This document shows, piece after piece, positions 23,797-56,312 of a stretch of DNA of 64,000 nucleotides. The notes under the pieces are model-generated. The model was not told the origin of the DNA. It worked only from the letters and a program-made list of their open reading frames with translations, and searched no databases. Position 1 is the first letter of the stretch. Each line of letters starts with the position of its first letter. The translations under genes and the position numbers were made by a program. Source of the DNA: Limnochordaceae bacterium (lineage in GTDB: Bacteria; Bacillota; Limnochordia; Limnochordales; Geochordaceae); assembly GCA_014896295.1 (NCBI GenBank), contig JADBKR010000008.1:186001-250000 (forward strand), in the 5' to 3' direction.

Positions 23797-23817
23797 CCAA
23801 TCAAACGTTAGGTAGGT
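23797..23817 (-). promoter_or_regulatory. putative TetR operator (shared with etfB promoter)
   Basis: Read on the minus strand the site is ACCTACCT-N2-CGTTTG-N3-GG, 46 bp before the tetR start. The same 16 fixed bases with identical spacing occur at 55513-55533, directly upstream of etfB. Such sharing between a TetR gene and an acyl-CoA operon suggests one regulator controls both. The second half-site here is degenerate. Confidence 0.5.
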
Positions 23818-23862: not shown

Positions 23863-24489
23863 ATGAGCAGGGAGCGCCGGCAGGAGATCGTGGCGGCGGC
23901 CGCCCGGATCTTCAACGAGCAAGGGTTCCACCGCACCTCCATGGCGGACGTGGCCCAGGCGGTGGGGATGCTCAAGGGAAGCCTCTACTACTACTTCGAG
24001 AGCAAGGACCAGCTGCTCTTCGAAGTGATCCAGACGCCGCTGCAAAAGCTGGTCGAGGCGCTGGAGGCGGTCCTCGAGCAGGAAGTGGATCCGGGGACCG
24101 GAGTGCGGGAGGCCATCCGCCGCCACATCGAAAGCTCGGCGGAGTACTACCCGCACCTCTTCGTGATCGCCCAGGAGCGCTTCGACTTCCTCGGCGAGCC
24201 GTACCGCTCCCGGATCATGGCCCTGCACCGCCGCTACCGGGCACTGTGGCTGCAGCTGCTGCGCCGGGGAGCCCAGGCCGGCCGCTTCCGCTCCGACCTG
24301 GATCCCTCCCTGGTCGCCTTCGCCATCCTCGGGATGTGCAACTGGATGTACCGCTGGTACCGGCCCGAGGGGCGCGCCTCCCCCCGCGTCATCGCCGAGC
24401 ACTTCGCCGAGGTCGTGCTCTCCGGCCTGCGGGCCCCTGGGGCCGGCGCCCCGGGCGCCTCGCAGGCGTCACTCCCGGGCTCTCAGTAG
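23863..24489 (+). CDS. TetR-family transcriptional regulator
   Basis: The 208-residue protein has a classic N-terminal TetR helix-turn-helix: RQEIVAAAARIFNEQGFHRTSMADVAQAVGMLKGSLYYYFESKDQLLFEVI. The C-terminal ligand domain resembles that of regulators of fatty-acid or acyl-CoA metabolism (TetR_C, with YYPHLFVIAQERFDFLGEPYR). ATG at 23863 has GAGGGG five bases upstream and is preferred over 23830. A motif before this gene recurs before etfB, so it may repress the acyl-CoA oxidation operon at 45.6-55.5 kb. It ends in a 7-bp overlap with the convergent deaminase-like gene. Confidence 0.9.
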   Translation: MSRERRQEIVAAAARIFNEQGFHRTSMADVAQAVGMLKGSLYYYFESKDQLLFEVIQTPLQKLVEALEAVLEQEVDPGTGVREAIRRHIESSAEYYPHLFVIAQERFDFLGEPYRSRIMALHRRYRALWLQLLRRGAQAGRFRSDLDPSLVAFAILGMCNWMYRWYRPEGRASPRVIAEHFAEVVLSGLRAPGAGAPGASQASLPGSQ

Positions 24490-38432: not shown

Positions 38433-38539
38433 GTGGCCGCCTCCTCGTACCGCCTCGTCGACGCCCGGGAGCCAGCGCAAGGGCGGCCCTCCTCGCGAGC
38501 CGCCCCTGCCCGCTCACCGAAACGGCGCCTGCTCCAGCA

Positions 38540-39517: not shown

Positions 39518-39588
39518 GCTCTTGCCCTCCCCTATCCTGAGTGGAAAACTCCCGCGCCGCGCTCTGGTCGATCGTGAAAGCCCGGCTC

Positions 39589-40794: not shown

Positions 40795-40834
40795 ACCCTG
40801 TGACACCCCGCATCCCGTCTTGGTCACGTCAACT

Positions 40835-42376
40835 CTACGGGCTACCGGGCTTCTCTCGAACCGGCTGTCCCATTGCGGCCGACAGGAAGCGACGGTACGC
40901 GTCTTCCCATCCGCCGCCCGCGGCCGGCTCGTACAGCCGAGTCCGAAACGACGTGCGCACCACGCTCCGGAGCTCCTCCAGTCCGGAGAGCTCCCGGAGA
41001 GCGACGGCCTGCACCAGCAGGTTGCCGGCCGCGGTCGCCTCCGCCGGCCCCGCCACCACCGGCCTGCCGGTCACGTCGGCCGTCAGCTGGCACAAGAGCT
41101 CGTTGCGGGAGCCGCCGCCCACCACGTGGATGCGGTCGATGGCGACGCCCGCCGCCCGTTCCAGCTGCTCGACGACCCACCGGTACTTGAGGGCGAGGCT
41201 CTCGAGAATGGTGCGGGCCACCTCGCCCCGGCTCTCGGGCGCCGGCTGGCCCGTGCGGGCGCAAAACTCCCGGATCCCCGAGACCAGGTCCCCGGGCCGC
41301 AGGAAGCCCGGGTCGTCCGGATCGATGAAGCAGCGCCGGGGCGGTGCGGCAGCCGCCTCCCTCACCAGCTGGTCGTAGGAGACGTCCGCACCCTCTCGCG
41401 CCCACCGGCGCCGGCACTCCTGCAACAGCCACAGGCCCATCACGTTCTTGAGGAAGCGAAAGGTCCCGAACGCCCCGCCCTCGTTGGACAGGTTGCCTTC
41501 GAAAGCGGCATCGGAGATGACCGGCCGGGAAAGCTCGAGGCCTACGAGCGACCACGTACCGGAACTGATGAACGCCCACGTGCGCCCCGAGGCTCTGTCC
41601 GATGGCTCGGCCGGCACGGCGACCACGGCGCTGGCGGTATCATGCCCGGCCGTGAGCGCCACGGGAACCGGCTCTACTCCGAGCTCTTCCGCGATCTCCG
41701 GCGTGAGCCTCCCCACGAGGGTCCCGGGCTGGAGAACGCTTGCAAAGAGGTCCCGGGGAAACCCGAAGGCGTCCAGCACCTTGCCAGACCAGGTCCGGGT
41801 GTGGGGATCCACCATCTGGGACGTGCTCGCGATGGTGAATTCGTCCACCATCTCCCCGCTCAAGAGGTACGAAAGGGCCGCCGGCATCATGAGCAGGTGC
41901 CGGGCCGAGGCGAGCTGCGCCGATTGCTCCAGCTTCATCGAAAGAAGCAAGTAGAGGGTGTTGATCGGCATGAGCTGGATGCCGGTCCACTCGAAGAGGG
42001 TACGCGCCGGCACCACGGCAAACGCCTTCTCCATGATGCCCTCGACGTAGCGGTCCCGGTAGTGGTATGGGTGGCCCGCCAGCTCGCCCTTCTGGTCGAA
42101 GAGCGCGAAGCTCACCCCCCACGTATCGATCGCCAGCGACTGCAGGGGGCCCCCCGCGGCCCGCCGCGCCGCCACCAGCCCTCGCTCGATCTCCAGCAAC
42201 AGCCGCAGCACGTCCCAGTACAACCGCCCCGAAGCTGCCACCGGCTCGTTGGCGAACCGGTAGACCTCTTCGAGCTCGAGCCGCCGCCCGTCGAACCGCC
42301 CCAGGACGGCCCGGCCGTTTTCGGCGCCCAGGTCGAACGCGACCAGGCAAAGCCTGCGATCCTTCCCGCCGCTCAC
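40835..42376 (-). CDS. rhaB: rhamnulokinase
   Basis: The 513-residue FGGY-family kinase has LVAFDLGAENGRAVLGRFDG at the N-terminus, RLYWDVLRLLLEIERGL, SLAIDTWGVSFALFDQKGELAGHPYHYRD, LTAGHDTASAVVAVP, FISSGTWSLVGLEL and VVGGGSRNELLCQLTADVTGRPVVAGPAEATAAGNLLVQA. These are typical of RhaB, which phosphorylates L-rhamnulose. GTG 42376 overlaps the stop of the aldolase fusion gene by 4 bp (GTGA). The frame is open far upstream, but that is the shadow of the aldolase gene. Confidence 0.93.
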   Translation of the reverse strand: MSGGKDRRLCLVAFDLGAENGRAVLGRFDGRRLELEEVYRFANEPVAASGRLYWDVLRLLLEIERGLVAARRAAGGPLQSLAIDTWGVSFALFDQKGELAGHPYHYRDRYVEGIMEKAFAVVPARTLFEWTGIQLMPINTLYLLLSMKLEQSAQLASARHLLMMPAALSYLLSGEMVDEFTIASTSQMVDPHTRTWSGKVLDAFGFPRDLFASVLQPGTLVGRLTPEIAEELGVEPVPVALTAGHDTASAVVAVPAEPSDRASGRTWAFISSGTWSLVGLELSRPVISDAAFEGNLSNEGGAFGTFRFLKNVMGLWLLQECRRRWAREGADVSYDQLVREAAAAPPRRCFIDPDDPGFLRPGDLVSGIREFCARTGQPAPESRGEVARTILESLALKYRWVVEQLERAAGVAIDRIHVVGGGSRNELLCQLTADVTGRPVVAGPAEATAAGNLLVQAVALRELSGLEELRSVVRTSFRTRLYEPAAGGGWEDAYRRFLSAAMGQPVREKPGSP

Positions 42377-44448
42377 CGCACGTACGCCCCCGCCACGCCG
42401 CCGTCGACCGTGATGGTGCACCCGGTGGTGCGGGAAGACCGGGCGGAGGCCAGGAAGAGCACCGCCTGCGCCACGTCCTCGGGCCGGACGTTGACCTTCA
42501 AGGTGGTCCGCTGGCGATAGTACTCGGGTAGCTCCTCGGGGCGGATGCCGTAGGCAGCCGCCCGGGCCTCCCGCCACTCCGAGGACCAGATGTGGGACCC
42601 TTCGAGCACCGCGTCCGGCGCCACGGAGTTGACCCGGATGCCGTACGCGCCGCCCTCCTCCGCCAGGGACCGCGCCAGGTGCTGCTCGGCCGCCTTGGCC
42701 GCGTTGTACGCGGCCGCCCCCTTGCCGGCCAGCAGGGCGTTTTTGGAGGTGATGAAGACGATACTGCCCCCGAGCCCCTGCGCCTTCATGACCCGGAAGG
42801 CTTCCCGGGCCACGAGGAAGTAACCCCTGGCCAGCACGCCGAAGATCCGCTCCCACTCCTCGAGCGGCGTCTCTTCCACGGGCGCCGAGTAGGCGAGCCC
42901 GGCCGAGGCCACCACGACGTCCATCCCGCCGTACGCCACGGTCGCCGCCTCGAACACCCGCCGCACCGCCGCCTCGTCGGAGACGTCCGCCGGCTGGGCC
43001 AGCACCCGGTCGGGCCCGTGCCGCTCCCGCAAGGCGGAGGCCGCCTCGTGCAGGCGGGCTTCGTCGATGTCGGTGAGCACGACGTGCGCCCCCTGGGCCG
43101 CCAGGAGGTCGGCCGTGGCCCGGCCGATGCCTCCTGCCGCCCCCGTGACCAGCGCCACGTGGCGGGACAGCTCCCGCTCGGGGGGCGCCAGCGTCAGCTT
43201 GTAGAGCTCGAGCGGCCAGTACTCGACGTCGTACGCCTGCTCGGGGCTCAGGGAGACGAAGCGCCCGAGCGCCGATGCGCCGCGCATGGTCTCGATCGCC
43301 CGGTGGTAGAGGCCGGCGGCCTGGCGCGCCTCGGCCTTCTCCTTGCCCGTGGCGATGAGCCCGAGCCCCGGGATGAGCACGATGCGCGGGTACGGGTCTC
43401 CGTCGGGATCGCCGGGCCTGCGAAAACGTGCCTGATAGGCCTGGTAGGCCGCCTTGTACTCCGCGAGGCCGCTCCGAAGGCGCGCGAGGAGCGCCTCCTC
43501 GGTCTCCTTGCCCGGATCCCACTCCACCCAGAGCGGCAGGTGCTTCGTATGCACCAGGTGGTCGGGGCAGGCCGAACCGACCTGGGAAAGCTCCCGGCCC
43601 TCGGACGAGCCGGCGAACTCCATGACCGCCGGCGAGTCGTCGTAGTGGAGGACGACCCGCCGTCGCTCGCTCATCACGCCCCTTGCCACGGGCATGAGCC
43701 GGCCGAGTAGCCGCCTGCGCTCTGCCTCGTCCATGGCCCGGATCCGGGCGCCGCCGAACGAGACCGGTGCCTTTGCCCGCTCCCGGACGAAGGCGTAGGC
43801 GTCGTTGACGATGGCCAGGGTGTTGTCGTACGCCTCCCGGTGGGTGCGCCCCCAGGTCACCAGGCCGTGGCGGGCCAGGAAGACACCCTGGAGCCGGTCT
43901 CCTCCTCTGCGAACCGCCTGCAGGACCTCCTTGGCCAGCGAGAAACCCGGGCGGCGATACGCCACCCAGGCGATGCGGTCGCCGAACGCCTCGCGCGTCA
44001 GCCGCTCGCCGTCCTCGGTGTTGCAAAAGGCGAGCACCGCGTCCGGGTGGGTGTGGTCCACGTGGGGATAAGGGATGAAGGCGTGCATGATGGTCTCGAT
44101 CGAAGGGCGCGGCGCCCCGGGCCGCAGCACGCAGCGGGTGAGGTACTCCACCATCTCCTCGTCGCTCATGGCGTCCCGGTTTTCGAGCAGCAGCACGTCC
44201 TCCAGCCGCAGGGGGGTGAAGGCCTCCTCCCGTATGGTCGCCAGGTCCGAGCCGCTGCCCTTCACCCACAGTACCGTGAGAGGCCGCCCGGCCACGTCCG
44301 TGCCGGGCAGCTTGGACGACGTGTTGCCACCCTTCCAGTTGACGATGGCCCGCTCGGCTCCGAGCAGGCGGGACCGGTAGACCAGAAGCTCCAGGTCGGA
44401 GAGGGAGGCTGTCTCGTGATCGCTCCATCGGCTGGCGATGACCGGCAT
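42373..44448 (-). CDS. rhaD: bifunctional rhamnulose-1-phosphate aldolase / short-chain dehydrogenase
   Basis: The 691-residue protein has an N-terminal class II aldolase domain (about 1-390: NWKGGNTSSKLPGTDVAGRPLTVLWVKGSGSDL, IMHAFIPYPHVDHTHPDAVLAF with metal His residues) and a C-terminal SDR domain (about 430-690: VALVTGAAGGIGRATADLLAAQG, catalytic Ser/Tyr/Lys region with AAAYNAAKAAEQHLARSL). The fusion is known in rhamnose pathways of Bacillus and others: it splits rhamnulose-1-P to DHAP and lactaldehyde and the SDR oxidises or reduces lactaldehyde. It is the first gene of the rhamnose operon; ATG 44448 follows GAGGCGAGCGGG. Confidence 0.93.
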   Translation of the reverse strand: MPVIASRWSDHETASLSDLELLVYRSRLLGAERAIVNWKGGNTSSKLPGTDVAGRPLTVLWVKGSGSDLATIREEAFTPLRLEDVLLLENRDAMSDEEMVEYLTRCVLRPGAPRPSIETIMHAFIPYPHVDHTHPDAVLAFCNTEDGERLTREAFGDRIAWVAYRRPGFSLAKEVLQAVRRGGDRLQGVFLARHGLVTWGRTHREAYDNTLAIVNDAYAFVRERAKAPVSFGGARIRAMDEAERRRLLGRLMPVARGVMSERRRVVLHYDDSPAVMEFAGSSEGRELSQVGSACPDHLVHTKHLPLWVEWDPGKETEEALLARLRSGLAEYKAAYQAYQARFRRPGDPDGDPYPRIVLIPGLGLIATGKEKAEARQAAGLYHRAIETMRGASALGRFVSLSPEQAYDVEYWPLELYKLTLAPPERELSRHVALVTGAAGGIGRATADLLAAQGAHVVLTDIDEARLHEAASALRERHGPDRVLAQPADVSDEAAVRRVFEAATVAYGGMDVVVASAGLAYSAPVEETPLEEWERIFGVLARGYFLVAREAFRVMKAQGLGGSIVFITSKNALLAGKGAAAYNAAKAAEQHLARSLAEEGGAYGIRVNSVAPDAVLEGSHIWSSEWREARAAAYGIRPEELPEYYRQRTTLKVNVRPEDVAQAVLFLASARSSRTTGCTITVDGGVAGAYVR

Positions 44449-44472
44449 CCCGCTCGCCTCGCCCTCGTGGGA

Positions 44473-44509
44473 TGTTGACCGATGATGTGACTCTCTGGTG
44501 TTTTGTGAC
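44473..44509. promoter_or_regulatory. repeated TGTGAC-type boxes between rhaD and its DeoR regulator
   Basis: TGTTGAC (44473-44479), TGTGAC (44486-44491) and TGTGAC (44504-44509) lie as direct repeats in the 168-bp divergent region, 25-61 bp upstream of rhaD. DeoR-family repressors often bind spaced direct repeats, so this is the likely operator region. No strong -35/-10 pair is clear. Confidence 0.4.
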
Positions 44510-44616
44510 CGCTTACTTCGGCAGCACCCCAGATCTTCCTTCCGGGTTTGCGAGATCTTGCGAGGAGCTTGCGCCGCGGGCGGCGAACATGGACCCGCGA
44601 AGGACAGGAGGCATCC

Positions 44617-45492
44617 ATGGCGGCTTCGCGCCACACGGACCGGGCCGACAGCGAGCAGACGCGCGGCACCCGCTTCGGATCTCCCACCCCGGGCACGGCC
44701 GACGGGCTCTTGCCCAGGAGCCGCCCTATCCTGGCATCCGAGCGGCGCAACGTCATCCGGCGCATCCTGCAAAGAGACGGGGCCGTGAGGGTGAGCGAGC
44801 TGGCCCCCGCCCTCGGGGTCTCCGAGGAAACCGTCCGGCGCGACCTCGAGTACCTGGCCCGGGCGGGGCTGGCCGAACGGACCTACGGGGGAGCCGTCGT
44901 CACCCAGTCGGCTTCACCCGAGCTGCCGTTCGCCCGGCGCGAGGCGGAGCACCGGGAGGAGAAGGAGAGGATCGCCCGCGCCGCCCTGCAATTCGTCCGC
45001 GAAGGCGACAACATCGGGATGGATGCCAGCACCACCGTGCTCTACCTGGCGCGTGCCTGGCCGCAGGACCTGCAGGTGACGGTCCTCACCAACTCGGTGC
45101 CCATCGCGGTGGAGATGCTCAAGCACCCGGCCGTGACCGTGGTCTGCACGGGGGGCATCATGCGGGAGGCATCGTGGTCGTTCGTGGGCCCGCTGGCCGA
45201 GAGGGCCGTCGGATCGTACCACCTCGACCGGGTGTTCATGTCGTGCCGGGGGTTCACCGTGGAGCGAGGGCCGACCGAGTCCAACGAGCTCGAGGTCCAG
45301 GTGAAGCGGCGGCTGATGGAGGCCGCCGAGCAGGTCATCGTGCTGGCGGACAGTTCCAAGCTGGGGGCGGCCGGCTTCGTCTCCATCAGCCCGGCCACCG
45401 CGGTGCAGGCGCTCGTCACCGACGCAGGCGCCGATCCCGCCTACGTGGAGCGGCTGCGGAGGTTGGGGATCGAAGTGGTGCTGGCGGAGTAG
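44617..45492 (+). CDS. DeoR-family transcriptional regulator (rhamnose operon)
   Basis: The 291-residue protein has a DeoR helix-turn-helix (RRNVIRRILQRDGAVRVSELAPALGVSEETVRRDLEYLARAGLAERTYGGAVV) and a C-terminal sugar-phosphate sensor domain (GDNIGMDASTTVLYLAR, VLTNSVPIAVEML, CTGGIMREASWSFVGPLAERAV, VIVLADSSKLGAAGFVSISPATAVQALVTD). ATG 44617 has AGGAGG six bases upstream. It reads divergently from rhaD and probably represses the rhamnose operon, responding to a phosphorylated intermediate. Confidence 0.92.
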   Translation: MAASRHTDRADSEQTRGTRFGSPTPGTADGLLPRSRPILASERRNVIRRILQRDGAVRVSELAPALGVSEETVRRDLEYLARAGLAERTYGGAVVTQSASPELPFARREAEHREEKERIARAALQFVREGDNIGMDASTTVLYLARAWPQDLQVTVLTNSVPIAVEMLKHPAVTVVCTGGIMREASWSFVGPLAERAVGSYHLDRVFMSCRGFTVERGPTESNELEVQVKRRLMEAAEQVIVLADSSKLGAAGFVSISPATAVQALVTDAGADPAYVERLRRLGIEVVLAE

Positions 45493-45594: not shown

Positions 45595-46752
45595 TCACGA
45601 GAAATAGCTGCGGGCGATGATCACTTTCTGGATCTCGTTGGTGCCTTCGTAGATCTGGGTGATCTTGGCGTCTCGCATCATGCGCTCGACGGGGTGGTCC
45701 TTCACGTACCCGTAGCCTCCGAGCAGCTGGACTGCGTCCGTGGTCACCCGCATGGCCGTGTCCGAGCAAAACATCTTGGCCATGGCCGCGTACCGGTTGA
45801 CCTCCGCAGGCAGCCGGCCGTAGCCATGGTCGTGGATGAGCCGCGACGCGTAGTACAACAGCTGCCGGGCCGCCTCGATCTGGGTCGCCATCTCCGCCAC
45901 CATGAACTGCAGCCCTTGAAACTCGGCCAAGAGCCGCCCGAACTGGCGCCGCTCCTTCATGTACGCCACCGCGTAATCGAAAGCCCCCTGGGCGATCCCC
46001 AGCGCCTGCGCCGCCACGCCGGGCCGGGACCGGTCGAAGGTCATCATGGCGATCTTGAAGCCCTCGCCCACTTCCCCCAGCCGGTGGTCGTCCGGTACCT
46101 CGCACCCGTCGAAGACCAGCTCGGCCGTGGGCGAAGCGTGCAGCCCCATCTTTTCCTCCAGGCGGCTCACCCCGAAGCCGGGCGTGCCCTTCTCGACGAC
46201 GAACGCTACGATGCCCTTGTGTCCCCGCGCCGGGTCGACCGTGGCGAAGGTGGTCAGGACGTCCGCCACGCTGCCGTTGGTGATGAACCGCTTGGTGCCC
46301 TCCAGCACCCAGCGGTCCCCGCGCCGCTCGGCCCGGGTGCGCAGGCTCGCCGGGTCCGAGCCGGCCTCGGGCTCGGTCAGCGCAAACGCCGCCAGCTTCT
46401 GCCCCGAGGCGATCGGCGGCAGCCAGCGCTGCTTCTGCTCTTCCGAGCCGCCCAGGACGATGGGCAGCGCCCCGAGCTCCTGCACCGCCAGGATGAGCGC
46501 CGCCGTGGCGTCCACCCGGGCGAGCTCCTCGATGACGACGACGAGCGTCAGGAGGTCGGTGCCCGCCCCGCCGTACGCCTCGGGCACGACGAGGCTGAAG
46601 AGACCCTGTTCCCGGAAGAGCTCGACGATGTCCCACGGAAACTCTCCGGTGCGGTCGTACTCTGCCGCCCGCGGCGCGATCTTCTCCTCCGCCAGCTCTC
46701 GCGCCAGCTTGCGAAACGACTCCTGTTCCTCCGTCAGGCGCCAGCCTGCCAT
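45595..46752 (-). CDS. acyl-CoA dehydrogenase (first, isovaleryl/short-chain type)
   Basis: The 385-residue flavoprotein shows the standard pattern: LTEEQESFRKLARELAEEKIAPRAAEYDRTGEFPWDIVELFREQGLF, FALTEPEAGSDPASLRTRAERRGDRWVLEGTKRFITNG, RRQFGRLLAEFQGLQFMVAEMATQIEAARQLLYYA, and LLGGYGYVKDHPVERMMRDAKITQIYEGTNEIQ, the last carrying the usual catalytic Glu. It oxidises acyl-CoA and passes electrons to ETF, encoded at the head of the same operon. ATG 46752 is used; the long open frame upstream is a shadow of the second dehydrogenase gene. It is the last gene of the operon. Confidence 0.92.
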   Translation of the reverse strand: MAGWRLTEEQESFRKLARELAEEKIAPRAAEYDRTGEFPWDIVELFREQGLFSLVVPEAYGGAGTDLLTLVVVIEELARVDATAALILAVQELGALPIVLGGSEEQKQRWLPPIASGQKLAAFALTEPEAGSDPASLRTRAERRGDRWVLEGTKRFITNGSVADVLTTFATVDPARGHKGIVAFVVEKGTPGFGVSRLEEKMGLHASPTAELVFDGCEVPDDHRLGEVGEGFKIAMMTFDRSRPGVAAQALGIAQGAFDYAVAYMKERRQFGRLLAEFQGLQFMVAEMATQIEAARQLLYYASRLIHDHGYGRLPAEVNRYAAMAKMFCSDTAMRVTTDAVQLLGGYGYVKDHPVERMMRDAKITQIYEGTNEIQKVIIARSYFS

Positions 46753-46817
46753 CACCTGGGCCACGTTGGCCGCCCCCCTCGCCCCCGGGGTTGGGAGCGC
46801 GCCCGCCTCGAAACGCC

Positions 46818-48044
46818 TCAGGCCGTCTCGCTTGTCCGGCTCGGGCGCAGGCCCATTTCCCGGGAAATAACCTCGCGCAGCATTTCGTCGGTGCCGCCGC
46901 CGATGCGGTAAAGCCGCAGATCTCGCCAGATCCGCTGCACGTCGTACTCCATCGTGTAGCCGTAGCCGCCGTGCATCTGCAGTGCCTCGTCGGCCACCTC
47001 GAACGCCGTCCGGGTGGCGACGAGCTTCGCCATCATGATCTCCTTGACCGCACGCCGGCCCTGCTCCACTCGCCACGCCGCCGCGTACACCAGCTGCCGG
47101 GCCGCCTCCAGCGCCGCCGCCATCTCCGCGATCCGGTGCTGCAGCGCCTGGAAGCGCCCGATGGGCTGGCCGAAGGCGTGGCGCGTCCGGACGTAGTCCA
47201 GCGTTTGGCGCAGCGCCTCCTGGCCCATGGCCACGGCCGCCGCCGCGATGGCGAGTCGCTCTCCCTCCAGCTCCCACATGAGGTGATAGAAGCCCCGGTG
47301 GAGTTCGCCCAGGAGGTGGCCGTCCGGCACGAAGCACTGGTCGAATAACAGCTCGCCGGTGTCCGACGACCACATGCCGACCTTGTCGAGGGTGCGCACG
47401 GTATGGAAGCCCGGCATGCCCCGTTCCACCAGGAAAAGGCTGATACCCGAGCGCCCCGCGGGCGGGTCGGTCTTGGCGGCCACCACCAACAGGTCCGCGA
47501 TGGCACCGTTGGTAATGAACGTCTTGCTCCCGTCCAGCACCCAGCCGCCCTCGGCACGGCGCGCCACCGTGCGGATGCCGGCGAGGTCCGATCCGGCCCA
47601 CGGTTCCGTCATGGCGATGGCCAGCACCTTCTCCCCGGCCAGCGCCGCCGGCAGGTAGCGCCGGTGCTGCTCGGGCGTCCCGAAGCGCACGAGCACCGGT
47701 AGCGCCATGTCCGTGTGAACCATGACCCCCATCGGAAGCCCGCCCATGCCGCACCGGTGCAGCTCCTCGATGAAGACGATCTCCGAGAACCAGTCCAGCC
47801 CCGCCCCGCCCAGGCTCTCCGGCACCCGCAGCCCCAACAGCCCGTACTCGCCCAGGGTGCGAAAGACGTCGGGAGGAAAGCCCCCCGCCTTCTCCCACTG
47901 CTGGGCGTGGGGCTTGAGGTAGCGCTCCACCACCTCGCGCACCGTCTCTCGCAACGCCCGGTGCTCCGGCCGGAAGTACGGCCCGAAGCGCTCCTCGAGG
48001 CCCGGCGCGTACTCCGCTCCGGCCTCCTGCGCCGCCAGTGCCAT
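46818..48044 (-). CDS. acyl-CoA dehydrogenase (second)
   Basis: The 408-residue flavoprotein has YFRPEHRALRETVREVVERYLKPHAQQWEKAGGFPPDVFRTLGEYGLLGLRVPESLGGAG, IAMTEPWAGSDLAGIRTVARRAEGGWVLDGSKTFITNG, and MHGGYGYTMEYDVQRIWRDLRLYRIGGGTDEMLREVIS. It differs clearly from its neighbour at the C-terminus (GGGTDEM instead of YEGTNEI), so the two probably take different acyl-CoA substrates. It lies 43 bp after the enoyl-CoA hydratase gene. Confidence 0.92.
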   Translation of the reverse strand: MALAAQEAGAEYAPGLEERFGPYFRPEHRALRETVREVVERYLKPHAQQWEKAGGFPPDVFRTLGEYGLLGLRVPESLGGAGLDWFSEIVFIEELHRCGMGGLPMGVMVHTDMALPVLVRFGTPEQHRRYLPAALAGEKVLAIAMTEPWAGSDLAGIRTVARRAEGGWVLDGSKTFITNGAIADLLVVAAKTDPPAGRSGISLFLVERGMPGFHTVRTLDKVGMWSSDTGELLFDQCFVPDGHLLGELHRGFYHLMWELEGERLAIAAAAVAMGQEALRQTLDYVRTRHAFGQPIGRFQALQHRIAEMAAALEAARQLVYAAAWRVEQGRRAVKEIMMAKLVATRTAFEVADEALQMHGGYGYTMEYDVQRIWRDLRLYRIGGGTDEMLREVISREMGLRPSRTSETA

Positions 48045-48087: not shown

Positions 48088-48912
48088 CTAGCGGCCCCGG
48101 AAGGACGGCGGGCGCTTCTCGAGGAAAGCCCGCACCCCTTCCGCCCGATCCTCCGTCGCCAGGGTCATCGCAAAGGCCTGCCGCTCCCACACCAGTCCCC
48201 ACGACAGCGGCCCTTCGAGCCCACGCCGGGTCACCTCTTTGATGAGCCGCAGGGCGACGGGAGCCTGCCGGGCAAGCTCGCCCGCCAGCTTCTCCGCCTC
48301 GGCGAGCACCTGGCCGTCGGGCACGACCCGGTTGACCAGCCCGACCCGCCACGCCTCCCGAGCGTCCATGCGGGCCCCCGTCATGAGCCACTCCAGAGCG
48401 CGCCCGAGCCCGACGAGGCGCGCCAGCCGCTGCGTGCCACCGGCGCCCGGCATGATCCCGAGCCGGATCTCGGGCTGACCGAAGGAGGCGCTCTCCTCAG
48501 CGATCCGGATGTCGGCCTGCATCGCGATCTCGAGGCCCCCGCCCATGGCGGCGCCCTGGATGGCTGCCACCACCGGCTTCTCGCAGGCGCTCACCCGCTC
48601 GAACAAGGGCGCGCGCCGGCGGATCCACGCTTGCGCCGCGGCCGCCCCGTCGATCCCTTCCATCTCCGTGATGTCCGCCCCGGCGCAGAAGTGCTTGCCG
48701 GCTCCCGCCAGTACGATGGCCCTCACCGCCGGCTCCTGCTCGGCTCTGTCCAGGGCCACAGCCAGGGCTGAGAGCAGGGCGTAGCTCAACGCATTGTACT
48801 TGTCGGGCCGGTTGAGGGTGATGAGGGCGTACCCCTCCCGGGGCTCGTAGCGCACGAGCCCTTCCCCGGCCTCCTCCGGGACGGTCTTTGCCGCGTCATC
48901 TCGGGACTCCAT
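48088..48912 (-). CDS. enoyl-CoA hydratase/isomerase (second)
   Basis: The 274-residue crotonase-family protein has both oxyanion-hole segments: IVLAGAGKHFCAGADITEM and AIQGAAMGGGLEIAMQADIRIA. The catalytic region SFGQPEIRLGIMPGAGGTQRLARLVGLGRALEWLMTG keeps the two acidic positions of hydratases. It adds water to 2-enoyl-CoA (or, in leucine breakdown, to methylglutaconyl-CoA). ATG 48912 follows GGGGAGTGGGTGAGAG. It lies 20 bp after the carboxyltransferase gene. Confidence 0.9.
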   Translation of the reverse strand: MESRDDAAKTVPEEAGEGLVRYEPREGYALITLNRPDKYNALSYALLSALAVALDRAEQEPAVRAIVLAGAGKHFCAGADITEMEGIDGAAAAQAWIRRRAPLFERVSACEKPVVAAIQGAAMGGGLEIAMQADIRIAEESASFGQPEIRLGIMPGAGGTQRLARLVGLGRALEWLMTGARMDAREAWRVGLVNRVVPDGQVLAEAEKLAGELARQAPVALRLIKEVTRRGLEGPLSWGLVWERQAFAMTLATEDRAEGVRAFLEKRPPSFRGR

Positions 48913-48932
48913 CGCTCTCACCCACTCCCCCT

Positions 48933-50507
48933 TCACACCGGGTAGACGGGGTTGCGACGGTGGGAGAACGCCGGCACCGGGCGGTGCCCGTAGAGCTCGA
49001 GGCGTTCCACGATCTCCTGGCGCAACCGCTCGGGGGGCACCACGGCGTCGACGATGAGCTGGGAGGCAAGCCGGACGATGTCGACGTCCCGGGTGTACTC
49101 CTCGCGCTTTTCCTCGACGAACGCGCCCCGCTCCGCCTCGGGCAGCTGCATGATGCGGTTGTAGTAGACCGCATTCACGGCCGCCTCGGGCCCCATGACG
49201 GCGATCTGGGCGGTGGGCAGGGCCAGGGTGCAGTCCGGTTCGAAGGCGGGCCCCGCCATCGCGTAGAGCCCTGCCCCGTAACACTTGCGGACGATGACCG
49301 CGATCTTGGGCACCGTCGCCTCGCTCGTGGCGCAGATCATCTTGGCCCCGTGCCGGATGATGCCCTGGCGCTCCACCCGGCTTCCGATCATGAAGCCGGG
49401 CACGTCGGCCAGGTACAACAACGGGATGCCATACGCGTTGCACAGCCAGACGAAGCGCGCCGCTTTGTCCGAGGAGTCCACGAAGAGTACGCCGCCCTTG
49501 ACCTTGGGCTGGTTGGCGACGATTCCCACCGCCCGCCCCTCGATGCGGGCCAGCGCCGTGATGATCTCGGGCGCGTACAGCCGCTTGATCTCGAGCACCG
49601 ACCCCTCGTCGACCAGCGCCTCGATGAGCTCCATCATGTCGAAAGGCGTGTTGGGGCGCAGGGGCACGATCTCCGCGACCGGCCGACCCGGGCGCGGCGG
49701 CACCGGCGCAGCGGCAGGCGGCTTCGCCTGCCAGTGGTCGGGCATGTAGGCGAGGTAGCGGCGCACGAGAGCGATCGCCTCGTCCTCGCTGCTCGCCAAC
49801 CAGTCGCCCAGCCCGCTCTCGGTGCAGTGCATGCGGGCGCCGCCCATCTCCTCGAGGCTCACCTTCTCGCCGATCACCATCTCGGCCATCCGGGGCGAGC
49901 CGAGGAAAGCGCTCGCGTTGGCGTCGACCATGATGGTCACGTCGGACAGCGCCGGGATGTACGCCGCCCCGGCGGGCGACGGCCCGAAGAGCACGCAGAT
50001 TTGGGGAACGACGCCGGACATCTTCACCTGGTTGTAGAAGATGCGCCCGGCATGGCGCCGCCCCGGAAACATCTCTACCTGGTCGGTGATGCGCGCCCCG
50101 GCCGAGTCGACCAGGTAGATCATGGGCACCGCCATGCGCATCGCGGTCTCCTGGATGCGCACGATCTTCTCGACGGTGCGGGCGCCCCACGAACCCGCCT
50201 TCACCGTGGAATCCGACGCCATGAAGCAGACCGGCCGCCCGTGGATGCGGCCGATGCCCGTCACCACCGCGTCGGCGGCGAGTTCCGGGCTCTCGGCGGC
50301 CGCGAGCCGCCCGTCCTCCACCATGGCGGAGCCGGGGTCGAGCAGTCGGCGCAGCCGTTCCCGCACGAAGAGCTTGCCCTGAGCCGCCGCCGACTCGTGG
50401 TAGCGCCGGGGGCCTCCGGCCAGGGCCCGCGCTTCGACCTGGCGCACCCGCTCGTGCGGGTCGGCCGGCGCCTGAGAAGGCGCAAGGGGGCGTGACTCGT
50501 CCGCCAC
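48933..50507 (-). CDS. acyl-CoA carboxylase beta subunit (carboxyltransferase)
   Basis: The 524-residue protein is a biotin-dependent carboxyltransferase of the propionyl/methylcrotonyl-CoA carboxylase type: AAAQGKLFVRERLRRLLDPGSAMVEDG, MIYLVDSAGARITDQVEMFPGRRHAGRIFYNQVKMSGVVPQICVLFGPSPAGAAYIPALSD, GVLFVDSSDKAARFVWLCNAYGIPLLYLADVPGFMIGS, and PTAQIAVMGPEAAVNAVYY. GTG 50507 overlaps the hydratase gene upstream by 7 bases less than a codon-frame shift and has GTGAGG before it. Gene context with a biotin carrier and hydratases suggests methylcrotonyl-CoA (leucine breakdown), but no biotin carboxylase lies in the window. Confidence 0.88.
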   Translation of the reverse strand: MADESRPLAPSQAPADPHERVRQVEARALAGGPRRYHESAAAQGKLFVRERLRRLLDPGSAMVEDGRLAAAESPELAADAVVTGIGRIHGRPVCFMASDSTVKAGSWGARTVEKIVRIQETAMRMAVPMIYLVDSAGARITDQVEMFPGRRHAGRIFYNQVKMSGVVPQICVLFGPSPAGAAYIPALSDVTIMVDANASAFLGSPRMAEMVIGEKVSLEEMGGARMHCTESGLGDWLASSEDEAIALVRRYLAYMPDHWQAKPPAAAPVPPRPGRPVAEIVPLRPNTPFDMMELIEALVDEGSVLEIKRLYAPEIITALARIEGRAVGIVANQPKVKGGVLFVDSSDKAARFVWLCNAYGIPLLYLADVPGFMIGSRVERQGIIRHGAKMICATSEATVPKIAVIVRKCYGAGLYAMAGPAFEPDCTLALPTAQIAVMGPEAAVNAVYYNRIMQLPEAERGAFVEEKREEYTRDVDIVRLASQLIVDAVVPPERLRQEIVERLELYGHRPVPAFSHRRNPVYPV

Positions 50508-50514
50508 GGCCGCC

Positions 50515-51303
50515 TCACCGCCCCTTCCACTGCGGCGCTCGCTTTTCGAGGAACGCCCGCACGCCTTCCTGGAAATCGTCGCTCCCGGCGAGCACGAGCC
50601 GCAGCGCGTGCAGGTACTCGATGGCGCTTCCCACCGGGAGATCCCGGCTCTCGGCCCACCCCCGCAGCCCCACTTCGACGGCCAGTGGGCTCCAGCCGGC
50701 GATCTGGCGGGCCACCGCCCCCGCCTCTTCCGGCAGCCGGTCGTGGGGCACGACCCGGTGGACGAGCCCCATCGCTTGGGCCTCCTGGGCATCGAAGAGG
50801 CGCCCGGTCAGGCCGAGCTCCAGGGCGCGCCGCTCCCCCACCGCCCGGGCCAGCGCCGGCATCACCACCATGGGAAACATGCCGAGGCGTACCTCGGTCG
50901 CCCCGAAGCGGGCCCGGTCGGAGGCCACCGCCACGTGAGCAAGCGCCACCAGCCCCAGGCCGCCCCCCAGCGCCCACCCGTTGACCGCGGCCACCAGCGG
51001 TCGGCGAAGCCGGGCTCCCAACTTGAACAGCCGCACCAGCGCCTCCCCGCCGGCGAAGGCCTCCGGGGCCGGCCGGCCACCCGTGGCGGCGAACTCCCGC
51101 ACGTCCGCCCCCGCGCAAAACGCCTCGCCGCTACCGGTCAGCAGGATCGCCCGGACCGCGGGCACCTGCTCGGCCTGCTCGAGGGCATCCGCGAGCGCCG
51201 CAGCCGCCTCGCCGGTGAGGGGATTGCGCCGTTCGGGGTCGCTCAGGGTGAGGCGCAGCACACCGGCCTCGTCGGGCCCTTCGCGCACCACGTGGCCGCT
51301 CAT
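50515..51303 (-). CDS. enoyl-CoA hydratase/isomerase (first)
   Basis: The 262-residue crotonase-family protein shows LTLSDPERRNPLTGEAAAALADALEQAE, ILLTGSGEAFCAGADVREF, AAVNGWALGGGLGLVALAHVAVASDRARFGATEVRLGMFPMVVMPALARAVG and the C-terminal EGVRAFLEKRAPQWKGR. It is related to the hydratase downstream but is clearly distinct; the MFPMVV stretch replaces the usual glycine-rich GAGGTQ, so its reaction may differ (isomerase or methylglutaconyl-CoA hydratase-like). Its start overlaps the stop of the biotin-carrier gene by 4 bp. Confidence 0.9.
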   Translation of the reverse strand: MSGHVVREGPDEAGVLRLTLSDPERRNPLTGEAAAALADALEQAEQVPAVRAILLTGSGEAFCAGADVREFAATGGRPAPEAFAGGEALVRLFKLGARLRRPLVAAVNGWALGGGLGLVALAHVAVASDRARFGATEVRLGMFPMVVMPALARAVGERRALELGLTGRLFDAQEAQAMGLVHRVVPHDRLPEEAGAVARQIAGWSPLAVEVGLRGWAESRDLPVGSAIEYLHALRLVLAGSDDFQEGVRAFLEKRAPQWKGR

Positions 51304-51512
51304 TCCAGCACCACGAGCACGTCGCCCTCCTGCACGAAGTCGCCCGGCTTCACCCGTACTTCCCGGACCTGCCCTCCGGCCGGCGCCGTCACAGGGATCT
51401 CCATCTTCATGGACTCCAGCACCACGACCTCGTCGCCCGGCCGCACCGAAGCCCCCGGCTCCACCGCGACCCGGGCCACCATCCCCGTCATCTCAGCTTT
51501 GACCGGCGTCAT
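51300..51512 (-). CDS. small biotin/lipoyl carrier protein
   Basis: The 70-residue protein is a stand-alone biotinyl domain: MTGMVARVAVEPGASVRPGDEVVVLESMKMEIPVTAPAGG, with the biotin-accepting Lys in ESMKME. It carries carboxybiotin between a biotin carboxylase and the carboxyltransferase encoded downstream. Similar short carriers occur in leucine-type catabolic clusters of Bacillus (YngHB). It overlaps the FeS oxidoreductase gene by 20 bp upstream and the hydratase gene by 4 bp downstream. Confidence 0.93.
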   Translation of the reverse strand: MTPVKAEMTGMVARVAVEPGASVRPGDEVVVLESMKMEIPVTAPAGGQVREVRVKPGDFVQEGDVLVVLE

Positions 51513-53586
51513 GCTCCTTCACGACCTGCCCCCCGTGCGGGGCGGCGGCAGCGGCGCTGCCCGTCCCGGCCCCGGCCGTCTCCATCCAGCGGGTCGCCTC
51601 CTCGACCAGCTCGGCCACGTCGCGCACCTGCACCTCCCGTTCGCCGGCCGCCGCCTTGACCGCGTCATCCAGCATCGCCATGCAAAACGGGCAGCCCACC
51701 GCCACGGTCTCGGCGCCGGTGGCGACGGCCTCCCCGGCCCTGAGCCGGCTGACCCGCTGCCCTTCCGGCTCCTCCACCCACATGCGCCCGCCGCCAGCCC
51801 CGCAGCAGAGGCTCTTGGTACGGTTGCGGGGCATCTCCACCAGCTCGGCGCCGCCCAGCTCCTCCAGGACGAAGCGTGGTGGCTCCACCACGCCGTTGTG
51901 CCGCCCCAGGTAGCACGGGTCGTGGAAGGTCACCCGCTGCTCGCGCGCTTTGGACGGCCGGGCTTTCAGGCGTCCTTCGGCTGCGAGCTTCGCGAGCATC
52001 TCGGTGTGGTGGGTCACCTGGTAGCGGCCGCCGAACGCGGGGTATTCGTTGTTGAACGTGTTGAAGCAATGCGGGCACGTCGTGACGATGCGCCGCACGC
52101 CCAGCCGCTCGAAGGTCTCGATGTTGGCCCGGGCCAGCTGCTCGAAGAGGAACTCGTTGCCGATCCGCCTCGCCGGGTCGCCCGTGCACTGCTCTTGCGC
52201 CCCCAGCACGCCCACGCGCACACCGGCCCGCAAGAGCGACGTGACGAACGCCCGCGCCACCTTCTGGTTGCGTTCGTCGAAGGCGGCGGCGCACCCCGCC
52301 CAGTACACCACGTCGACGGAGGCGGCCTGGCCGGGCTCGGTGAGTTCCACGACCCCGAGGCCCTGGTACCAGCCGGTGCGGCTGGCCGTCGCCCCCCGGA
52401 ACGGATGGCCCCGCGCCTCCAGGCTCCGCAGCGCGTCCTGCATGGTCTCGGGGAACTCTGACTCTTCCATCACCAGGTACCGGCGCATCTCCACGATCTT
52501 GGGAACGTGCTCGATGAAGACGGGGCACGCCTCCATGCACGCCATGCAGGTGGTGCACGCCCACAGCGTCTCGGGCCGGACGACCTCGCCGGCCAGCTTG
52601 CGGGGCGCGGCGCCGTCCCCCGGGCCGTCTCTCAGCTCGTTGCGCAGGTCGAGGATGAGGTCCATCGGCGAAAGCGGCTTGCCGGTCATGCTGGCCGGGC
52701 AGACCGCCGTGCAACGCCCGCACTCGGTGCAGACGTCGAGGTCGAAGAGGTCTTTCCAGCGCAGATCCGACGGAGCCGAGGCTCCCAGCCGCTCCGTCTT
52801 CTCGAAGTCGATGGGAGCCGGGCTGGCCGGCGCCTGCAAGGGCTGCAGGTATACGTTGGCCGGCGCGAGCACCAGGTGGAACAGCTTGGAGTACGGGACG
52901 TAGGCGATGAAGGCCATGGCGAGCGCGAAGTGCAACCACCACAGCCCGGCGTGCCACGCCCGCAGCGTCGCTTCGCCGAGCCCGAGGGCCCAGGCTCCCC
53001 GGGCCACGGCCAGGCCGGCGAAGCTCCACGGGGCCCACGGGTCGTGGGTCGCCGCGATGCGCAGCCCCTCGACGAGATACCCGGTGACCAGGATGAGCTC
53101 GAAGAGCACGAGGATGGCCGCGTCGGACCAGATCCCCCGGCGCAGGCGGGGATTTTTCGCCACGTACCGCTGCCACAGGGCGGCCCCCACGCCGGCGATG
53201 GCTGCCAGGCCCATGGCGTCCAGCGCCGCCGACTGGAAGTAGAGGTAGAAGCGCCCCTGCATGATGCGCAAGCCGAAGTCCTGGTGGATGAACACGACGA
53301 CGGTGCCGGCGAAGAGGAACACGAAGCCCCAGAAGAACGCGAAGTGATACAGCCCCGCCACCCGGTCCGCCAGCAGCCGGCCGTGGGCGGCCACGTGCCG
53401 CAGCACCAGCAGAAGGCGCGGCCAGACGGGGGTCAGGCGCGCGACCGGGCGCCCCTGCCGCCACACCCGCAAACGGCGCCAGATACCGTAACCGAAGATC
53501 CCCACGGCGACCGCGGCCAGGACGTACATCACGATGACGCCGGCGTGGGGAATGTTCCAGAAGACTTCTCGGGTCGCTTGGTTCAC
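51493..53586 (-). CDS. membrane FeS oxidoreductase, ETF:menaquinone oxidoreductase type
   Basis: The 697-residue protein has a NarI-like membrane part (five or so helices in residues 14-235, with His residues for haem b), two [4Fe-4S] motifs (CTECGRCTAVCP, 286-296; CTTCMACMEACP, 344-354), and a C-terminal heterodisulphide-reductase part with CCG-type cysteine domains (WAGCAAAF, TTCPHCFNTF, HDPCYLGRHN, SLCCGAGGGRMW, VGCPFCMAML). Proteins of this layout next to etfAB pass electrons from reduced ETF to menaquinone. It links acyl-CoA oxidation to respiration. The gene lies between etfA and the biotin carrier. Confidence 0.92.
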   Translation of the reverse strand: MNQATREVFWNIPHAGVIVMYVLAAVAVGIFGYGIWRRLRVWRQGRPVARLTPVWPRLLLVLRHVAAHGRLLADRVAGLYHFAFFWGFVFLFAGTVVVFIHQDFGLRIMQGRFYLYFQSAALDAMGLAAIAGVGAALWQRYVAKNPRLRRGIWSDAAILVLFELILVTGYLVEGLRIAATHDPWAPWSFAGLAVARGAWALGLGEATLRAWHAGLWWLHFALAMAFIAYVPYSKLFHLVLAPANVYLQPLQAPASPAPIDFEKTERLGASAPSDLRWKDLFDLDVCTECGRCTAVCPASMTGKPLSPMDLILDLRNELRDGPGDGAAPRKLAGEVVRPETLWACTTCMACMEACPVFIEHVPKIVEMRRYLVMEESEFPETMQDALRSLEARGHPFRGATASRTGWYQGLGVVELTEPGQAASVDVVYWAGCAAAFDERNQKVARAFVTSLLRAGVRVGVLGAQEQCTGDPARRIGNEFLFEQLARANIETFERLGVRRIVTTCPHCFNTFNNEYPAFGGRYQVTHHTEMLAKLAAEGRLKARPSKAREQRVTFHDPCYLGRHNGVVEPPRFVLEELGGAELVEMPRNRTKSLCCGAGGGRMWVEEPEGQRVSRLRAGEAVATGAETVAVGCPFCMAMLDDAVKAAAGEREVQVRDVAELVEEATRWMETAGAGTGSAAAAAPHGGQVVKEHDAGQS

Positions 53587-53646: not shown

Positions 53647-54675
53647 TCAGGAGGCCCGGGCCGCATCGCCGCCCCGCCCGAGCGCCTGCGCCAGACGGTC
53701 GGTCAGAAGCGGCAACACCCTGCGGTAGTCCTCCACGAGGCCCAACTCGGCCGCCCGGAATATGGGGGCCTCCGGGTCCTTGTTGATGGCCACCACGTGG
53801 CGCGCCCCGGAGACTCCCGCCAGGTGCTGGCTGGCGCCGCTGATCCCGACCGCCACGTAGAGGTCCGGTGCCACGATCTTGCCGGTCTGCCCGATCTGCA
53901 GGTGAGCCGGCGCCCAGCCGGCGTCGACCGCAGCCCGGGACGCGCCGACGGCCCCTCCCAAGACCTCGGCGAGACGCCGCAGTGCCTCGAAGCCCTCTGG
54001 CCCGCCGACGCCCCGCCCGCCCGAAACGATGACCCTGGCATCTTCGAGCTTCTGCCCCTCGGAAGAGCCGGCACGCCGCTCCACGACGCGCGGCCGCGCC
54101 CCTCCGAGCGCGCCGGCGGGCAGCGAGAGGTGCACCACGGCGTCCGCGGGGACGGGCCCCTCCTGCATCGCGGCAGGCGCGCGAAACGCCCTGGGCCGCA
54201 CCACCGCTACCGTGCGCGGCCGCCGGGCCCGGACGGCCGCCATGGCCTTGCCGCCGTAAATCGGGCGCACCCACAGGACCTGGCCGTCCACCCCTCGGAC
54301 CTCCACCACCTCCGTGACGGAGGCCGCCCCCAGCCGCATGGCAAGCCGCGGCCCCACCTGGGCGCCCAGGGGATCCCCGTCGAGGACGGCCACGGACGCC
54401 CCTGTCTCCGGCACCAGCCCGGCCAGGGCCGCTACCAGGGCGCCCGCGTCCGAGTCCCGCAGGGCCGGGTCCGCGGCCGCAAACACGCGCCGCGCCCCCA
54501 GCCGCCAGAGCCGTTCGGCGGTGGGGGCGAGCGCAGTGCGCTCCGTGCCGGCGAGCACCAGGGCCAGGAGTTCGCCTCCGGTTGCCCGGGCCGCCTCGAC
54601 GGCGCAGCCCATCAGTTCGTCGACCCCCGAGCCGGGGGTGCCTTCCGGAGCCAGCACGATGGCGACGACGCTCAT
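53647..54675 (-). CDS. etfA: electron transfer flavoprotein alpha subunit
   Basis: The 342-residue protein has the ETF-alpha C-terminal FAD domain: LEDARVIVSGGRGVGGPEGFEALRRLAEVLGGAVGASRAAVDAGWAPAHLQIGQTGKIVAPDLYVAVGISGASQHLAGVSGARHVVAINKDPEAPIFRAAELGLVEDYRRVLPLL. This matches EtfA closely. ATG 54675 follows GAAGGGG. It lies 26 bp after etfB and 60 bp before the membrane oxidoreductase. ETF receives electrons from the two acyl-CoA dehydrogenases of the operon. Confidence 0.95.
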   Translation of the reverse strand: MSVVAIVLAPEGTPGSGVDELMGCAVEAARATGGELLALVLAGTERTALAPTAERLWRLGARRVFAAADPALRDSDAGALVAALAGLVPETGASVAVLDGDPLGAQVGPRLAMRLGAASVTEVVEVRGVDGQVLWVRPIYGGKAMAAVRARRPRTVAVVRPRAFRAPAAMQEGPVPADAVVHLSLPAGALGGARPRVVERRAGSSEGQKLEDARVIVSGGRGVGGPEGFEALRRLAEVLGGAVGASRAAVDAGWAPAHLQIGQTGKIVAPDLYVAVGISGASQHLAGVSGARHVVAINKDPEAPIFRAAELGLVEDYRRVLPLLTDRLAQALGRGGDAARAS

Positions 54676-54701
54676 GGCGTTCCCCTTCTCCCCTGTGCGA
54701 T

Positions 54702-55502
54702 TCACAGGACCTTGAGGTCGAGGATGGCCCTGACGAGGGCATCGACCCGGGCCTCGACGGAGTCGCCTTCCATCATCCGGCACCGATGGTCCTGGGCCGG
54801 GACGAAGAGGTCCGCGATTTCCGCCCAGGGCCGTCTCGACTCCTCGGGCACGGGCAGCGCCGGCAGCTCGACCACGTCGATGGGCTTGCGGTGGGCTGCC
54901 ATCACGTCCTTCACCTTGGGGATGCGGGGCACGTTGGAGGGCGCGTTGGTGACGGTCACCACGACCGGAGTCGCCACCTCGACGACCTCGACGCCGTCGC
55001 GGGTCTCCCGCTCGACCAGGAGCTTGCCACCCTCCCCGGGCCGCACCCCGATCGCGTGGGTCACCACGGGCAGGCCCAGGATCTCCGCGACCAACAGGCC
55101 GACCTGGCCGCCGTCGGTGTCGCCGGCCTGCCGGCCGAAAAGCACCACGTCGGCCGGCCACAGCCGTTCCCGGATGGCCGCCGCCAGGGCGGAGGCCGTC
55201 TGGACGGCATCGGGTTCACCCAGGCTGCCGGGCTCGATGCGCACGGCCCGGTCGGCCTGCATGGCCATGGCCTTGCGCAGCACCTCGTCGGCGCTCTTGG
55301 GTCCCAGGCTGAGGGCGCTCACCGTGCCGCTACCGGCCGTCTCCCGCAGTTTCAGGGCCACCTCGACGGCGATCTCGTCGAACGTGCTGATCACGAGCGG
55401 CGCCTTCCCGGCTACCGGGCGTTTCGTGGCGGGGTCGATGGCGAAGTCGCGCGGCGACATCTCAGGGTCCAGGACCTGCTTGACGCAGACCACCAGGTGC
55501 AT
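54702..55502 (-). CDS. etfB: electron transfer flavoprotein beta subunit
   Basis: The 266-residue protein has the EtfB pattern: MHLVVCVKQVLDPEMSPRDFAIDPATKRPVAGKAPLVISTFDEIAVEVALKL, VLFGRQAGDTDGGQVGLLVAEILGLPVVTHA and VTVTNAPSNVPRIPKVKDVMAAHRKPI. It binds AMP and, with EtfA, FAD. It is the first gene of the acyl-CoA operon. A palindromic site that matches one upstream of the TetR gene at 23.8 kb lies directly before the ribosome site. Confidence 0.95.
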   Translation of the reverse strand: MHLVVCVKQVLDPEMSPRDFAIDPATKRPVAGKAPLVISTFDEIAVEVALKLRETAGSGTVSALSLGPKSADEVLRKAMAMQADRAVRIEPGSLGEPDAVQTASALAAAIRERLWPADVVLFGRQAGDTDGGQVGLLVAEILGLPVVTHAIGVRPGEGGKLLVERETRDGVEVVEVATPVVVTVTNAPSNVPRIPKVKDVMAAHRKPIDVVELPALPVPEESRRPWAEIADLFVPAQDHRCRMMEGDSVEARVDALVRAILDLKVL

Positions 55503-55510
55503 CGGGAGCT

Positions 55511-55536
55511 TAACCTACCTTCCGTTTGGCAGGTTA
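55511..55536. promoter_or_regulatory. palindromic operator upstream of etfB
   Basis: TAACCTACC (55511-55519) and GGCAGGTTA (55528-55536) match as inverted arms at 8 of 9 positions, with 8 bases between. The site sits 9-34 bp before the etfB start and overlaps its ribosome-binding region. Sixteen of 21 bases (ACCTACCT-N2-CGTTTG-N3-GG) recur upstream of tetR at 23797-23817. It is a good candidate for a TetR repressor site. Confidence 0.6.
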
Positions 55537-55681: not shown

Positions 55682-56287
55682 TCAGCGAGCGTAAAACTCG
55701 ACCACGAGGTTTTCGTCGACCTTGACCGGCATCTCTTCACGCGACGGGATGCGCAACAGCCGCCCGCGCAGCCGTTCGCGATCGAGCTCCATGTAAGGCG
55801 GCGGAGCGGCCCGCTGCTCCAGGCCCTGGGCGACAGGTTGGAGCGTCTTGCTGCGCTCCCGCACGGTGATCTCGTCCTGGGGCCGCACGGCAAAGCCCGG
55901 GCGGTCGACCTTGCGCCCGTTGACCCGGATGTGGCCGTGCACCACGAGCTGGCGGGCAGCCGGCAGCGTGGGCGCCAACCCCAGCCGGTAGACCACGTTG
56001 TCCAGGCGGGTCTCCAGGTACTGCAGCAGCCGTTCGCCCGTGCGCCCGCGGGTGCGGGTGGCCCGCTCGAAGTAGTTGCGCAGCTGCCGTTCCGTGACGC
56101 CGTACAGAAACTTGAGCTTCTGCTTCTCCATGAGCTGCAGCCCGTACTGGCTGGCCCGCCTGCGGGCGATGCGACCGTGCTGTCCGGGAGGATAGGGACG
56201 CTTCAGCGCAGGGCAGTCGGGCAGCCCGCACAGGGGCTCGCCCACCCGCCTGCACATCCGGTGACGAGCCGCAACGGTCCGGGCCAT
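55682..56287 (-). CDS. rpsD: ribosomal protein S4, zinc-binding (C+) form
   Basis: The 201-residue protein is S4: MARTVAARHRMCRRVGEPLCGLPDCPALKRPYPPGQHG, QLRNYFERATRTRGRTGERLLQYLETRLDNVVYRLGLAPTLPAARQLVVHGHIRVNGRKVDRPGF (S4 RNA-binding domain) and the C-terminus EEMPVKVDENLVVEFYAR. The N-terminal cysteines (MC, LC, DC) mark the zinc-binding form. ATG 56287 is the usual start. The gene stands alone here, away from ribosomal protein operons, as often in Bacillota, and a strong hairpin lies just upstream. Confidence 0.95.
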   Translation of the reverse strand: MARTVAARHRMCRRVGEPLCGLPDCPALKRPYPPGQHGRIARRRASQYGLQLMEKQKLKFLYGVTERQLRNYFERATRTRGRTGERLLQYLETRLDNVVYRLGLAPTLPAARQLVVHGHIRVNGRKVDRPGFAVRPQDEITVRERSKTLQPVAQGLEQRAAPPPYMELDRERLRGRLLRIPSREEMPVKVDENLVVEFYAR

Positions 56288-56312
56288 GGATACCATCCCT
56301 CCTGAGCGCGCC

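Follow-up and report, generated by a model that had tools for sequence, protein, structure and literature searches.

The TetR-family regulator FadR of Bacillus subtilis controls the operons lcfA-fadR-fadB-etfB-etfA and fadF-acdA-rpoE (PMC4525379). In mycobacteria, BkaR is an autoregulating TetR repressor that acts on acyl-CoA-carboxylase and related genes via dispersed operators (PMC3920632), and for PfmR of Thermus an in vitro consensus, TACCGACCGNTNGGTN, has been published (PMC7022988). Cultured Limnochordales have been reported to carry beta-oxidation genes (PMC11456536). Here we characterize a TetR-family gene (tetR) and an etfB operon located 31 kb apart in a 64-kb stretch of a Limnochordaceae genome; the whole stretch is called the window and its genome G000. 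The system is best read, by analogy, as working like Bacillus FadR with operators resembling those of Thermus PfmR. With FadR it would share TetR-type control of etfBA and acyl-CoA dehydrogenase operons; in Bacillus, FadR's own gene lies in one of them (PMC4525379). Genomic evidence places etfBA and acyl-CoA dehydrogenase genes among the predicted targets, as for a FadR-type regulator; the analogy is functional only, and the tetR product scores 71.8 bits against the FadR equivalog NCBIfam NF053878 (cut-off 200). In contrast to Bacillus, the regulator gene of the window's family is separated from etfB by the 31 kb mentioned and the predicted regulon takes in acyl-CoA carboxylase genes. The PfmR consensus is matched perfectly at the tetR operator of genome G004 (locus L179) and at 10 of 13 specified bases at both window operators, O1 and O2 (see below). 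However, the published in vitro consensus has another dyad spacing, and the Thermus operon of PfmR, TTHB023-014, is listed with acyl-CoA dehydrogenases and no etfBA. BkaR resembles the present system as an autoregulating TetR protein with dispersed operators and acyl-CoA-carboxylase targets, but its operator (GTTANTN4ANTAAC) is unrelated and its targets are branched-chain keto-acid genes.

The proposed regulator, the etfB operon and their shared motif

The tetR gene (23863..24489, + strand) encodes a protein of 208 aa that combines an N-terminal TetR HTH (TetR_N, PF00440, 3.6e-18, 65.5 bits, cut-off 24) with a TetR-type ligand domain (TetR_C_24, PF17932, 1.3e-31, 109.6 bits, cut-off 26.4) and thus belongs to the TetR family. 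Its closest solved relative is 3vpr (6.7e-32), which is probably PfmR (TTHB023) of Thermus thermophilus HB8. Among the next is KstR2 of Mycobacterium and Rhodococcus (5e-24), a regulator of sterol-ring CoA catabolism with the same MYRWYRPEG-type C-terminal motif. A protein-pattern search of genome contigs yielded distant TetR proteins alone, and their gene neighbourhoods were uninformative. Elsewhere in the window (14561-20685, − strand) a UvrD-like helicase/nuclease is found beside a PD-(D/E)XK nuclease; the sister-genus homologues of this AddAB-like recombination pair adjoin the tetR orthologue (L174).

The second locus is a run of minus-strand genes. It starts with etfB (54702..55502, electron transfer flavoprotein beta subunit, PF01012 1e-34), etfA (53647..54690, start approximate, alpha subunit, PF00766 1.6e-34 in ORF 53647-55161) and a membrane Fe-S oxidoreductase gene (51493..53586, CCG, 4Fe-4S and NarI-like domains, PF02754 3.1e-32, PF13237, PF02665). 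The oxidoreductase is likely an Etf:menaquinone oxidoreductase of the EMO/EtfD type, with a NarI-like membrane part, 4Fe-4S and CCG domains and adjacent etfBA both in the window and in relatives. The run continues with a biotin carboxyl carrier protein (BCCP) of 70 aa (51300..51512, PF00364 9.5e-17), enoyl-CoA hydratase (ECH) 1 (50515..51303, PF00378 8e-53) and an acyl-CoA carboxyltransferase of the propionyl-CoA type (48933..50460, start approximate, PF01039 4.7e-155 in ORF 48933-50792), whose closest solved chain is propionyl-CoA carboxylase beta (2e-108). Enoyl-CoA hydratase 2 (48088..48880, start approximate, the C-terminal part of ORF 48088-50190, PF00378 3.6e-70) and the acyl-CoA dehydrogenases (ACADs) 1 (46818..48044, PF00441 2.4e-49, PF02771 2.5e-34) and 2 (45595..46760, start approximate, PF00441 3.9e-49, PF02771 7.2e-37) follow. 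From 55502 to ∼45595 the run is likely one operon with acyl-CoA dehydrogenase 2 as its last gene, and no biotin carboxylase was found among its genes. The ribosomal protein S4 gene rpsD (55682-56296, − strand) precedes etfB on the same strand at a distance of 180 bp; the interval revealed no terminator-like structure, so read-through into etfB is possible. Directly downstream of the operon (36900-44772, − strand) we observed an L-rhamnose catabolism and transport cluster comprising rhamnose isomerase, RhaD aldolase/dehydrogenase, FGGY kinase and ABC transporter genes.

An earlier, sequence-only reading of this DNA had described one operator-like motif upstream of both tetR and etfB, which at etfB was said to form an 8-of-9 palindrome overlapping the ribosome site. 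Both features are present. The motif ACCTACCTNNCGTTTGNNNGG occurs without mismatch upstream of tetR (23797-23817, − strand, ACCTACCTAACGTTTGATTGG) and upstream of etfB (55513-55533, + strand, ACCTACCTTCCGTTTGGCAGG), and these are the only two exact copies in the window and in the whole 2.89 Mb genome, which removes the concern that the motif might be widespread. From dinucleotide shuffles, 0.14 matches with up to three mismatches are expected per window, and two matches in the same shuffled window were seen in 0 of 100 shuffles. Genome-wide, the total of 15 matches (2 exact and 13 with 2-3 mismatches) equals the 15 of a reversed-pattern control. The tetR site is located ∼46 nt 5′ of the tetR ATG, 2 nt past the preceding stop codon. 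The etfB site, 12-31 nt 5′ of the etfB ATG, contains a purine-rich, Shine-Dalgarno-like GGAAGGTAGG (12-21 nt before the ATG) that is likely the etfB ribosome-binding site and is overlapped by the palindrome at 55511-55536 (TAACCTACC-N8-GGCAGGTTA, 8/9 arms paired). Comparative data place the operator centre at a C·G step, CCTACCTTCC·GTTTGGCAGG (the dot marks the centre). In the etfB leader of the sister genus a 17-bp block, CCAAACGGAAGGTAGGT, is identical, the outer 8-of-9 arms survive only in part and the remaining sequence has diverged.

Gene order and operators in related genomes

G000 was compared with G061 (same species), G001 (sister genus) and a foreign set of nine tetR loci (L177-L185) from two other families of the order. 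The TetR orthologue of G001 is 74% identical, TetR proteins of other families of the order 31-40%. In five foreign loci (L178, L182, L183, L184 and L185) tetR directly precedes etfB-etfA-FeS; in L179 and L180 it heads an ECH-ACAD-ACAD-etfB-etfA-FeS run, and in L177 and L181 it is followed by an ACAD gene. All nine carry a palindromic site with a C·G dyad upstream of tetR, of the form CTACCNNNC·GNNNGGTAG (for example CTACCGACC·GTTTGGTAG, CTACCAATC·GGTCGGTAG and CAATCAAAC·GTTTGATTT), and an equivalent operator-like site was found at 11/11 homologous tetR loci inspected. In eight of the nine the operator starts 9-10 bp past the consensus −10 box of a TTGACA/G-N17/18-TANNNT promoter and so would cover the transcription start. 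No consensus sigma-70 promoter was recognisable at tetR or etfB of the window, whose genome is GC-rich; the position of the operator relative to the start site, and with it a steric mechanism, are therefore carried over from the relatives. In L177 (G003:C11) and L181 (G011:C115) a second TetR homologue is paired with a single acyl-CoA dehydrogenase and a CAAACGTTTG-type operator; the window tetR site resembles a hybrid between a CAAACGTTTG-type and a CTACC-type half-site.

A symmetric weight matrix was built only from the 8 distinct foreign tetR-promoter operators and used to scan the window and ∼207 kb of targeted G000 stretches. Among 63,981 window positions the two highest-scoring were O1, upstream of tetR (23797..23816, − strand, CCAATCAAAC·GTTAGGTAGG read on +), with 22.2 bits, and O2, upstream of etfB (55514..55533, + strand, inside the 55511-55536 palindrome), with 15.6 bits. 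A first-order Markov null predicts 0 positions of at least 22 bits and 0.083 of at least 15.5 bits per 64 kb. O1, at 22.2 bits, corresponds to the palindromic operator at its own promoter expected of a TetR-family regulator. Five of six training subsets place O1 and O2 as the top two; the exception is the two ACAD-type loci alone, with which O2 falls to rank 302. The G001 sites score 16.2 bits (tetR) and 15.6 bits (etfB). Within 300 nt of etfB paralogues, and of those etfB copies that share a transcript with tetR in other families, no site exceeded 7.2 bits.

Other candidates were rejected. The third-best hit of the window, at 61630 before a gamma-glutamyltranspeptidase gene, is at chance level with its 12.2 bits and lacks conservation in the sister genus (2.1 bits). 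One-mismatch relatives of the G000 consensus have low matrix scores and many are inside coding regions; one kept in both genera lies inside a mutase-like gene and was not taken as an operator. The generic 14-bp core ACCNANCGNTNGGT shows no genome-wide enrichment (85 versus 86 in the control in G000), which leaves the longer matrix as the sole informative pattern.

The 14 genomes of the order compared for tetR (TetR E<=1e-20) and this etfB (EtfB E<1e-50) divide into 10 with both genes and 4 with neither, the latter including G002 from the same genus as G001; since the 14 genomes are related, this co-occurrence is not a probability statement. The sequence-only reading had predicted a repressor acting on its own gene and on the etfB operon, and the foreign operators point to exactly these two sites, with the gene order of the five loci and the joint presence and absence in support. 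Both genes carry the same switch, and relatives in which they stand side by side carry it too; on these genomic grounds the tetR-encoded repressor very probably controls the etfB operon.

Extent, inducer and regulator of the proposed regulon

The control proposed earlier is supported, whereas its proposed extent was too small. Outside the window, 12.6 kb to its left (G000:C8:173365), the matrix picks up a third high-scoring site, TCAACCAAACGGCCGGTTGG (19.4 bits), which precedes a biotin carboxylase-BCCP-meaB operon, is conserved in G061 and ranks first in its 20 kb with 6/6 training subsets. This operon provides the carboxylase subunit missing from the etfB operon. In other families (L231, L238) carboxyltransferase, biotin carboxylase and MeaB genes are neighbours, on the same contigs as tetR-etfBA operons. 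Searched genome-wide, the three-site consensus was matched exactly at 3 positions in G000 and at the 3 corresponding ones in G061; as the consensus was derived from these sites themselves, the search shows only that there is no fourth near-identical copy. No site above ∼13 bits was found at the beta-oxidation loci C3:111-117k, C4:52k, C4:182k and C7:484k or at several CoA ligase loci. The G000 biotin carboxylase gene (L172:5653-7368, G000:C8:171653-173368) is split over two frames, through either a frameshift of recent date or an error in the assembly, and is one open frame in G061.

An acyl-CoA is the likely inducer by analogy with Bacillus FadR, which responds to long-chain acyl-CoA (PMC4525379). 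Given the carboxylase and MeaB content of the regulon, a short or branched CoA thioester has to be taken seriously as an alternative: propionyl-, methylmalonyl- or isovaleryl-CoA, not a long-chain compound, might be the signal of a regulon for propionyl-CoA or branched-chain oxidation. We give this possibility somewhat less than even odds. It would fit the propionyl-type carboxyltransferase, BCCPs, biotin carboxylase and MeaB, as well as the lack of a strong site at the core fad genes (G000:C3:111-117k) and most CoA ligases, but the carboxylase substrate is not fixed by sequence, the two ACADs are generic, and both PfmR and Bacillus FadR serve general fatty-acid metabolism.

A second TetR_C_24 regulator (G000:C8:272793) is encoded outside the window (L173:9873-10574, G000:C8:272673-273374). 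A perfect ACCGACCGGTTGGT site lies between a −10-like box and its start, and its sister-genus counterpart keeps ACCGACCGGTCGGT; because ACCGACCGGTTGGT resembles the operator, cross-binding or cross-talk between the regulators is possible. The sites at etfB and biotin carboxylase could then belong to this second protein or be common to both. In its promoter lies AGACCGACCGGTTGGTCT, which the same matrix scores at 13.7 bits, the sister-genus counterpart carries CGACCGACCGGTCGGTTT, and in Thermus PfmR and SbtR have common targets (PMC7022988). However, it is the homologue of the window TetR that etfB adjoins in relatives, ACCTACCT..CGTTTG is common to O1 and O2 and missing from the second regulator's site, and the window TetR and etfB co-occur tightly, which makes this assignment improbable.

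Least probable, and only marginally credible to us, is that chance or translation explains the likeness, the Shine-Dalgarno-like GGAAGGTAGG of etfB merely resembling the tetR site: the exact motif is found only twice per genome, foreign operators predict both O1 and O2, conservation extends to CAAACG, which lies outside the ribosome-binding site, and the tetR site is too far from its ATG to serve in ribosome binding. Part of the conservation of O2 could be translational given its overlap with the ribosome-binding site; as TetR proteins bind DNA, the overlap is best explained by an operator near the start of transcription rather than by control of translation.

A probable dispersed regulon with a shared operator

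Taken together, we consider it probable (∼0.86) that TetR is the autoregulating repressor of a dispersed acyl-CoA oxidation and carboxylation regulon that was once one operon. A TetR dimer would bind the ∼20-bp imperfect palindrome at its own promoter (O1), O2 in the promoter/leader of the etfB-etfA-FeS-BCCP-ECH-carboxyltransferase-ECH-ACAD-ACAD operon and the third copy before the biotin carboxylase-BCCP-meaB operon. We infer repression rather than activation: the bound protein would block transcription initiation at tetR, etfB and biotin carboxylase until a CoA thioester derived from the pathway releases it from the operators. The adjacency of tetR and etfBA, as in relatives today, would be ancestral and presumably was lost by rearrangement in the window's family, with an operator at each gene.

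We can only tentatively suggest, and regard as rather doubtful, a more specific version in which one ancestral operon split into three unlinked units, a single TetR keeping control via retained or re-created operators, with electron transfer from Etf to quinone coupled to a two-operon acyl-CoA carboxylase and a short- or branched-chain CoA thioester as the signal. If this were true, regulon unity would replace operon unity.

The type of regulation is already well known, and this new case implies no new kind of mechanism; it is ordinary in kind and unusually well supported. For acyl-CoA oxidation in a little-studied lineage it defines a regulator, an operator and a three-unit regulon at the sequence level, allows inducer identity and cross-talk among related TetR regulators to be tested directly, and would be a clear example of a dispersed operon that kept its operator.
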